A stretch of 50,615 nt of DNA from Bacteroides sp. Its GTDB lineage: Bacteria; Bacteroidota; Bacteroidia; Bacteroidales; Muribaculaceae. The stretch's first letter is position 1. Each line of letters starts with the position of its first letter. Positions 48,478-50,615 of the stretch are shown here, one piece after another. The notes beneath the pieces are model-generated. The model was not told the DNA's origin. It saw nothing but the letters and a program-made list of their open reading frames with translations, and ran no database searches. A program made the position numbers and the translations under genes. The stretch spans positions 881,281 to 931,895 of the forward strand of contig JAMPBJ010000001.1 of NCBI GenBank assembly GCA_023666835.1, written 5' to 3'.

Positions 48478-49086
48478 CTAAAAATTCAATATCTCTCGTG
48501 TAGGAAATTTTGAGGGGAACACGTTTTTGTGAAATAGAATTATCTTTAAACCGTCTGAATCATATTCAGCTATGAAACAAGTATATGGGGGGATTTTTAC
48601 TTTCGGTTTTGCCGGATAAAAGCTAAGTTTAACATTGAGTACATCACCGGAAGGATTGAATAGTAATTTGTTATCGATATTGTCAGTTGTAATATCGTCG
48701 GGCACTTGTATGATAAAATATTTTGAATTGCCGTTGTGATAATGACGATAGACACCGGCTATAGAGTGTGGGTAACGTTCGGTAATTGCAGAAAATTTGA
48801 AATCCCGGATGTGGAAACTTAATGTCGATTCAGATAATCTATCTATGTCCCATAGGAAAACTTCCACAGAGGGAATCGATGTTAATGAATCAAGTGTCTC
48901 CTGCATTGATTGATAAATGCTGCAGGTGGTGTCAATGGTCAAAATCTCATACTTTTCATAAGGTGTAGTTCCATAGTGCGGATCTTGATCAATCGTTATA
49001 TCATTGTCTTTAATCGAATTTGCATTGCATAAAAACACAGTACTCGCCAAATGGACTATAGTTGTTAGCAGGAGCAGTTTTTTCAT
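48478..49086 (-). CDS. Exported 202-residue protein, second of a paralogous pair (candidate immunity or partner of the RHS tip)
   Basis: A hydrophobic signal (MKKLLLLTTIVHLASTVFL) is followed by a beta-rich domain with no recognised family. It aligns along its length with the preceding gene: KYEILTIDTTCSIYQSM against KYLILKIDTTAPFYNSI, IRDFKFSAI against IRDWSFSLI, GVYRHYHNGNSKYFII against GVYCHKYANHKKWFVI, and LLFNPSGDVLNVKLSFYP against SLFSPTGNHLNIDFVLYP. Its start overlaps the paralogue's stop by 4 bp (ATGA), so translation is coupled. AT-rich composition differs from the GC-balanced genes to the left. Position after an RHS gene suggests an immunity role, which is inference. Confidence 0.7.
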   Translation of the reverse strand: MKKLLLLTTIVHLASTVFLCNANSIKDNDITIDQDPHYGTTPYEKYEILTIDTTCSIYQSMQETLDSLTSIPSVEVFLWDIDRLSESTLSFHIRDFKFSAITERYPHSIAGVYRHYHNGNSKYFIIQVPDDITTDNIDNKLLFNPSGDVLNVKLSFYPAKPKVKIPPYTCFIAEYDSDGLKIILFHKNVFPSKFPTREILNF

Positions 49087-49691
49087 GGTTTTAGAAGTAT
49101 CGGTCGGTTGTCAATTATATACTCTACTGTAGTTAATTTATTAGATCGGTAGATCCCCTGGTAGCTCGATACTGTGTCGTAGTAAGTTATAAATGCTCCT
49201 GGAGGAAGAGGCGGATATAAAACAAAATCGATGTTTAAATGATTCCCTGTAGGAGAAAATAAGGATTCTATGTCCGTTGATTGATCAGGTTTGCAATCTT
49301 TGTAGTTCATGATTACAAACCATTTTTTATGGTTGGCATATTTGTGGCAATACACGCCATGTATGTCCGGTTTTAGTTTTTGATTGATAAGGCTGAAGCT
49401 CCAATCTCGAATGCAAGTAAAAGAGATTGAGTCTTGAACTGTTCCAAACATCCAAACATAGTTAGCAGAGTTGTCAATAGTAGAAAGAGTATCAAGGACA
49501 CCCTTAATAGAATTATAGAATGGAGCCGTTGTATCGATTTTCAGAATTAAATATTTGTTGATGACTGTGCTGTCGTGCTCAGATGTTGTATATTCTATAT
49601 AGGTTTCATCCGAGCATATAATGGAGTGACCTTTCTGGAAACCAAAGGCAATCAAAAATATCAAGGTTGTTAATGATAGCGATAATCTCAT
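49083..49691 (-). CDS. Exported 202-residue protein, first of a paralogous pair after the RHS gene
   Basis: A signal peptide (MRLSLSLTTLIFLIAFGFQKGHS) is followed by a mature part that parallels the next gene, including IDTTAPFYNSIKGVLDTLSTI and SLFSPTGNHLNID. It starts 15 bp after the RHS stop and ends in a 4-bp overlap with its paralogue, so the three genes form one transcription unit. No known domain is recognised. The signal implies action in the periplasm or at the surface. Low GC content matches the RHS tip, not the RHS core. Confidence 0.7.
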   Translation of the reverse strand: MRLSLSLTTLIFLIAFGFQKGHSIICSDETYIEYTTSEHDSTVINKYLILKIDTTAPFYNSIKGVLDTLSTIDNSANYVWMFGTVQDSISFTCIRDWSFSLINQKLKPDIHGVYCHKYANHKKWFVIMNYKDCKPDQSTDIESLFSPTGNHLNIDFVLYPPLPPGAFITYYDTVSSYQGIYRSNKLTTVEYIIDNRPILLKP

Positions 49692-49706
49692 GTCTATGTA
49701 ATTAAT

Positions 49707-50615
49707 TTACTTAGGGGTGACAGTAAGACCAGAAAGTTCATTGATATATGTGTTCCTGTCGTATTTCAATTTTTTTCCATCAGATGTTATAATGTAGAGC
49801 AATGCATTAGGGTAAAGTTCTTGGATTTTAATAGCCATTTTGTTGTCTCCTTTAGAAACAGACAGGTTCCCATTTGTGTGATTATGTGTCGCTTCGATAA
49901 GGCCATAATTGTATAAAATACAAGATTCAAATATGATCTCCATGGAGTAATCACTGTTTTTTTTATGGGATGTTCCCAAGTAATATTTAATTTTTCCGGA
50001 ATCGTCTATCTGAACATAAGACCATTCCACGATAGTGTTTTTATATAGGAATTCAAATAATCGATCAATATTATATCCTGAGCCATATATTTCAACATGG
50101 GTAGAACCTGCCTCTTCTTGATTGGTATCAACTGAAGCATCAACATCACTCTCGAATAATTTCTGAAATGCCCCCTTTTTAGTTTGTATAGAGTTATTAA
50201 AATCTCCGTTAGAATATATGGTGTCAAAATCATCATTTGTAACTTGAATCATAGTGTAATTCCCTAACGAATCCACAGAATAGATGTTCATGCCGGAGGG
50301 GTCGATGAGGTTTATTGGGTCTGCGGCGCAGTAGGTGTAGGGTGAGATGAGGTGGTAGTCGGTGGCGAGGGGATCGGGAGTGGTGAAGTGGGGTAAGACG
50401 GGGTTTTGGTAGCGGGCTTCGAAGTCGTAGAGGTTGAGGCCGAGGTCGGTCTGGAGCTCTTTGGCGCCGTATTTGCGGCGGTTGGTTGCGGGGGAGGATG
50501 TTGTATAATTTGTCGATGTGGCGTGTGGCAGACCGTAGGGATAGTAGTCTGTTGTCTGCACGAGAGTTTGGGTGGCTGTGTTGTATACCGCCACGATATT
50601 TCCCTGCAGATCGTA
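49707..50615 (-). CDS. RHS-repeat protein, C-terminal end (partial), with JAMM-motif tip
   Basis: The frame runs off the window's right edge, and 302 C-terminal residues are visible. The first hundred or so are RHS core: YDLQGNIVAVYN (YD repeat), TDYYPYGLPHA, GLNLYDFEARYQNPVLPHFTTPDPLA, and the boundary DPINLIDPSGM. After this motif the variable tip begins, about 190 residues and distinctly AT-rich. The tip contains THNHTNGNLSVSKGD (49892-49845), an exact H-x-H-x7-S-x2-D pattern of JAB/JAMM metallopeptidases, followed by a plausible strand LLYIITSDG. The upstream catalytic Glu cannot be placed with certainty (candidate in TIVEWSYVQI). Polymorphic RHS toxins are known to end in such swappable domains, and JAB-type tips have been described. 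Toxicity here is inference. Confidence 0.8.
   Translation of the reverse strand, partial: YDLQGNIVAVYNTATQTLVQTTDYYPYGLPHATSTNYTTSSPATNRRKYGAKELQTDLGLNLYDFEARYQNPVLPHFTTPDPLATDYHLISPYTYCAADPINLIDPSGMNIYSVDSLGNYTMIQVTNDDFDTIYSNGDFNNSIQTKKGAFQKLFESDVDASVDTNQEEAGSTHVEIYGSGYNIDRLFEFLYKNTIVEWSYVQIDDSGKIKYYLGTSHKKNSDYSMEIIFESCILYNYGLIEATHNHTNGNLSVSKGDNKMAIKIQELYPNALLYIITSDGKKLKYDRNTYINELSGLTVTPK

Follow-up and report, generated by a model that had tools for sequence, protein, structure and literature searches.

The DNA stretch considered here (hereafter the window, 50,615 nucleotides in full) comes from a Bacteroides sp. genome of the family Muribaculaceae (assembly GCA_023666835.1, contig JAMPBJ010000001.1, positions 881,281 to 931,895). 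At its right end, with all features on the minus strand, it carries the final part of an RHS gene and two related genes, which we interpret as a polymorphic-toxin locus. The RHS reading frame (49707–50615) is open at the window end. Its C-terminal core portion (50304–50615) matches TIGR03696 over residues 24–109 of the frame (53.3 bits; cut-off 32.5), lacks its 5′ part, and closes with DPINLIDPSGM; it is followed by a tip (49710–50303) of much lower GC content (0.343 vs 0.561 in the core). The first downstream gene, P0002 (49083–49691), starts 15 bp after the RHS stop codon and encodes an exported-like candidate immunity protein; the second, P0003 (48478–49086), overlaps P0002 by 4 bp and encodes a candidate second one. 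The two products, of 202 amino acids (aa) each, are paralogues (32 per cent identity over 179 columns, E = 5e-22), and both begin with a hydrophobic segment resembling a signal peptide (best nine-residue hydropathy 2.93 in P0002 and 2.14 in P0003). The AT-rich tip behind an RHS core, the closely spaced paralogous pair and the signal-type N-termini had been recorded in an initial annotation, and all are confirmed here.

Judged by its sequence, the tip is the Tox-JAB-1 domain of Zhang et al. (2012), which the relevant passages of that survey describe as an RHS tip restricted to Bacteroidetes and bearing the motifs NxxxE, HxH, S and D (PMC3482391). The tip alone scores 52.4 bits, and the whole RHS frame 51.6 bits, against Toxin-JAB1 (PF15659; cut-off 21). 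The TIGR03696 core directly precedes the tip, placing it after RHS sequence in a member of the Bacteroidetes; the RHS repeat part is not visible because of an assembly gap. All four motifs are present: NTIVE, containing the conserved Glu codon (E93 of the tip; 50025–50027), and HNHTNGNLSVSKGD, in which H140, H142, S150 and D153 form the H-x-H-x7-S-x2-D pattern of the predicted zinc site. This pattern, correctly spotted at the outset, spans 49845–49886 and does not extend to 49892 as had been stated. HNHTNGNLSVSKGD is its sole instance in 48,166 residues (window translated in six frames, stop-to-stop stretches of 60 aa or longer), and it arises in 7 of 20,000 shuffles of the tip.

An alignment of 38 of the 42 tips without internal stops, to which PF15659 matches throughout by construction (L038, L056, L064 and L074, partial or oddly framed, were omitted, as were three matches in genome G062), keeps the zinc-site Glu, H140 and H142 in 38/38, S150 in 32 and D153 in 27. 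The anticipated Glu-His-His-Asp site is therefore invariant in its first three members, with the Asp more variable, and the window tip, which has kept the conserved residues, looks intact. Two further tips (L162 and L184, the latter a 40-aa stub) are of JAB type by tip profile and absent from the PF15659 match list; the model may miss divergent members.

An AlphaFold2 model of the tip (predicted local distance difference test score, pLDDT, 71.2; predicted template modelling score, pTM, 0.67) was compared with known folds. MPN/JAMM chains dominate among the PDB matches listed, with the matched MPN/JAB domain covering about 49719–50081, so that the predicted fold, together with the Glu and His-x-His residues, bears out the JAMM-type assignment made initially. 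The predicted fold is that of JAMM deubiquitinases (AMSH, Rpn11, BRCC36, archaeal JAMM1 and bacterial BubCD), and the Glu and His-x-His residues are common to these enzymes and the tip. Unlike them, however, the tip has no known ubiquitin-like substrate, and the structural alignments of the MPN rows give only 6–16 per cent identity. Toxin JAB domains are also described, in the section of the 2012 survey devoted to them, as being without the residues that line the ubiquitin-tail tunnel (Zhang et al. 2012; PMC3482391). We regard the tip as a candidate JAMM metallopeptidase: the residues are present, and zinc binding and peptidase or isopeptidase activity are predicted.

The source genome holds four RHS cores. 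Three of them, the window's included, are 93.8–97.5 per cent identical (the window core being 97.5 and 95.3 per cent identical to the other two), whereas their tips share 20.8–25.6 per cent in global alignments, which by this measure is the level of unrelated sequences. A constant core with unrelated tips in one genome is the hallmark of polymorphic-toxin systems. Downstream of each of the four tips, within 30 bp, lies an exported-like protein. Among the other three tips (L157, C3:415802; L164, C3:1112337; L177, C3:168272), two contain H-E-x-x-H when their sequences are read (HEADH and HENAH), and one of these two matches Peptidase_M91 (26.2 bits; cut-off 25); the source strain may carry mainly metallopeptidase-type RHS tips. 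Elsewhere, at L037 and L043, there are short arrays of successive RHS-core fragments in which the tips differ and every tip is paired with a partner of its own; these arrays look like reservoirs for tip exchange.

With a probability of roughly two in three, in our estimate, the window contains the toxin end of an RHS polymorphic-toxin locus together with its probable immunity end, the tip being a zinc hydrolase of the periplasm or envelope that the 202-aa proteins block. The RHS shell would carry the tip to neighbouring cells, and there the tip would act in the periplasm or at the envelope, most likely as a peptidase or isopeptidase. Both 202-aa proteins would be secreted to the producer's own periplasm and would there block arriving copies of the tip by binding to them; the second of the pair may be a spare or may widen protection to a variant tip. 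What weighs against this reading is given in the following paragraphs, with the alternatives that it favours.

The first such point concerns the missing part of the RHS gene. Extension of the contig, proposed initially as a way to see the N-terminus, runs into a 100-N scaffold gap (L002 5002–5101) that begins right after window base 50615 and leaves the N-terminus unreadable. The N-terminus might truly be absent, the locus being an orphan silent module and its tip mere recombination material. No 5′ part is assembled, no minus-strand open reading frame (ORF) of 100 aa continues the RHS gene beyond the gap, and many JAB-1 tips of relatives lie in frames of only 200–400 aa, all of which fits such a module. 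The core is nevertheless 95–97.5 per cent identical to two others, and assemblies tend to break at repeats of this kind, so that even an intact gene would be expected to show a gap here; the tip also has its conserved residues intact. We consider an orphan module unlikely. Near-identity of the RHS cores is a plausible cause of the gap, and probably the reason why the assembly broke there. A second 100-N gap lies at L003 9525–9624, and each of the two gaps adjoins a repeated RHS core or falls within one; in assemblies of this type, RHS genes may consequently be truncated and undercounted.

To place the exported-like partners in context, we surveyed the loci of the family. A protein was called exported-like from its N-terminal hydropathy only (line at 2.2), start codons being picked in favour of a hydrophobic N-terminus. 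The family search with PF15659 returned 45 matches, of which one (G062:C27:34565-34675) was dropped because it falls in a broken gene that was already matched; 3 of the remaining 44 JAB-1 loci stop no more than 60 bp short of a contig end, and the other 41 are testable. An exported-like protein starts less than 100 bp from the tip at 39 of these 41, the misses being G288 (first ORF 184 bp away and not exported-like, second ORF exported-like) and G062:C21 (a frame with a stop). Only 6 of the 39 first partners contain a lipobox pattern. At the level of the order, where 21 of 66 match rows were opened, such a partner is found at 16 of the 21 loci; the misses are L085 (311 bp left), L086, L090 (frame with a stop), L097 and L099, the last of which is by sequence a RadC gene and not an RHS tip.

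Export of the partner is common behind RHS tips of other kinds as well. The control set began with the 75 over-cut-off rows of 87, which minus 15 known JAB loci gave 60; removal of L162 and L184 left 58, and removal of truncated loci left 52. In 40 of these 52 non-JAB loci of the same family an exported-like partner starts within 100 bp (Fisher 0.019 vs the JAB loci), and 17 of 44 background ORFs pass the hydropathy test. P0003 itself, at 2.14, falls just below the survey line. These figures tell against a reading built on partner export alone, and we reject the argument from signal peptide to periplasmic tip where it is the sole argument; the further step, taken in the initial annotation, from signal peptides to a peptide or isopeptide substrate was too quick, given that so many non-JAB tips have partners of the same kind.

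A Pfam scan of 50 of the 52 control tips (L154 and L166 were left out) finds exported-like or membrane partners at tips that are envelope enzymes, namely M23 (L178), CHAP (L188), YkuD (L196) and Lipase_3 (L197), and at 5 of the 7 Peptidase_M91 tips above cut-off; of the other two M91 tips, L153 and L168, the second has a signal-type partner at a distance of 115 bp. The partner of an MPTase2 tip (L144) misses the line at 2.18. The RHS arsenal of the family thus seems rich in envelope-directed enzymes such as M23, CHAP, YkuD (L,D-transpeptidase) and Lipase_3.

A different picture emerges at tips carrying the AHH nuclease (PF14412), present in 7 of 297 genomes, and these bear on the question of what the JAB tip cuts. 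The published suggestion for both toxin JAB clades, in the part of the survey dealing with them, is that they are nucleases (Zhang et al. 2012; PMC3482391), and the tip could accordingly be a cytoplasmic nuclease of the JAB/RadC kind, with the exported partners keeping it from crossing the inner membrane of the producer. In a PDB sequence search the tip profile indeed matches RadC best, and the RadC-like JAB domain (PF04002), of the same JAB fold class, is the second Pfam match of the tip (16.1 bits), a point in favour of a nuclease; that score lies below the cut-off of 22.1, and RadC, unlike the window tip, is not an RHS tip.

The partners speak for the other side. At AHH-nuclease loci the first downstream ORF begins at a distance of −4 to 26 bp from the stop codon of the tip, and its product is exported-like in 0 of the 6 readable loci (hydropathy 0.36–1.71; ATG starts were tried first, then ATG, GTG and TTG), as opposed to 39/41 for JAB-1 (Fisher 2.6e-6). 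A seventh locus (L205), with 273 bp left, was not readable. An RHS core is seen at four of the six and at neither L207 nor L208 within the 1.5 kb examined; restricted to those four, the comparison (0/4) gives about 1e-4 (hypergeometric, by hand). The AHH set is small, and the loci are not independent. By this contrast JAB-1 tips group with envelope-type tips and not with nucleases, which argues against the nuclease proposal of Zhang et al. and is in keeping with a hydrolase of the periplasm; that the substrate is a peptide we only infer. The claim of extracytoplasmic action thereby gains some support that signal peptides alone, being a weak argument, had not given it, and the target of Tox-JAB-1 is probably extracytoplasmic. 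We consider a cytoplasmic nuclease quite unlikely. Behind two AHH-nuclease RHS tips (L203 and L204), two successive similar proteins without export signals were observed.

Whether P0002 and P0003 are immunity proteins at all was judged from their position, their recurrence and their relatives. A search with P0003 found no homologue of the pair (E ≤ 0.001) among 396 other family genomes, and searches with the pair alignment found none in 33 genomes of the genus or in 392 of the order, the three sets overlapping; a contig scan with P0002 gave 30 pattern matches, none of which was confirmed. The co-occurrence search proposed for tip and 202-aa family thus met no homologue beyond the locus, and the proposed refutation, homologues mostly without an RHS gene, had nothing to act on.

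Within a pool of 55 partner proteins with signal peptides removed, P0002 resembles the protein that partners the G121 tip (E = 4e-5), a match better than the best of each of 200 P0002 shuffles; that tip was grouped by eye with the window tip, in a set of four at 27–29 per cent identity to the latter that is not clearly apart from some others. A pairwise profile comparison again ranked the G121 partner first (probability 23.7 per cent). P0003 has no significant match in the pool, and when 34 partners were pooled and compared with the pair by profile, the result was not significant (probability 1.1 per cent, with 1 of 100 shuffled controls as high). Kinship of the pair to other JAB partners is, on these sequence comparisons, suggestive only.

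The two proteins could instead be accessory or co-secreted toxin proteins. No curated immunity family in Pfam (25 of 36 families listed) or NCBIfam gives a convincing match, among the matches listed, to P0002, P0003 or 62 other partners (Imm48 matches one of the 64 at E = 0.076); homology of the pair to other partners is, moreover, not established, and both points lean toward an accessory role. PDB searches with partner alignments and a PHROGs search yielded nothing convincing, and the structure prediction for P0002 was poor (pLDDT 33). On the other side, the position directly behind the swapped tip, the tandem paralogy and the exported-like partner at nearly all testable JAB-1 loci fit immunity genes, and the 2012 survey, in its treatment of Tox-JAB-1, names an exported immunity protein for it. 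An accessory role is, in our view, very unlikely, and P0002 and P0003 are probable immunity genes by position and recurrence.

At five loci (L039, L043, L045, L050 and L051) a single JAB-1 tip is followed by a tandem of two or three linked exported-like partners, from which it follows that partner-gene duplication recurs; same-locus partners cluster together in G003, G176, G199, G204 and G367.

The nearest described system is Tox-JAB-1 with Imm65. The passages concerned state that Tox-JAB-1 is strictly associated with Imm65 and that Imm65, with its lipobox, is the sole apparent lipoprotein among the immunity proteins surveyed (PMC3482391). Like that system, the window has an RHS core in front, a tip with NxxxE, HxH, S and D, and an exported-like partner directly downstream; unlike it, there are two paralogous partners, and a lipobox pattern is found neither in P0002 (pattern search) nor in P0003 (sequence read; Leu precedes Cys20). 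The partner side is therefore either a divergent Imm65 or a different family.

The combination of RHS tip and exported partner is in any case already in print, and the window is a further case of a described family. The initial view of it as little described does not stand, the tip being already PF15659/Tox-JAB-1 and its pairing with exported Imm65 having been described, in the part of the survey on this toxin, in 2012 (PMC3482391). Searches of one open-licence library listed no paper besides the 2012 survey whose title or abstract deals with a Tox-JAB-1 toxin, although PMC9635880 contains a single mention of Tox-JAB, and they showed no JAMM-type enzyme as an envelope-directed weapon.

More broadly, and with somewhat less than even confidence, we propose that Tox-JAB-1 tips are zinc peptidases or isopeptidases of the target periplasm, and that the RHS arsenal of the family is mainly aimed at the envelope and matched by fast-diverging, largely unnamed exported immunity proteins. 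The comparison of partners across tip types makes the site of action of Tox-JAB-1 testable, and the 64 partners scanned show how diverse and unnamed the partner side of these loci is. As for delivery, a search of the genome (assembly estimated 79 per cent complete) did not find the type VI protein VipB. Type IX export is hypothesised, in the portion of the source concerned with it, for another class of Bacteroidetes polymorphic toxins, TANFOR (PMC7073777), and GldK of the type IX system is present in the source genome (535 bits; genome-level presence only).
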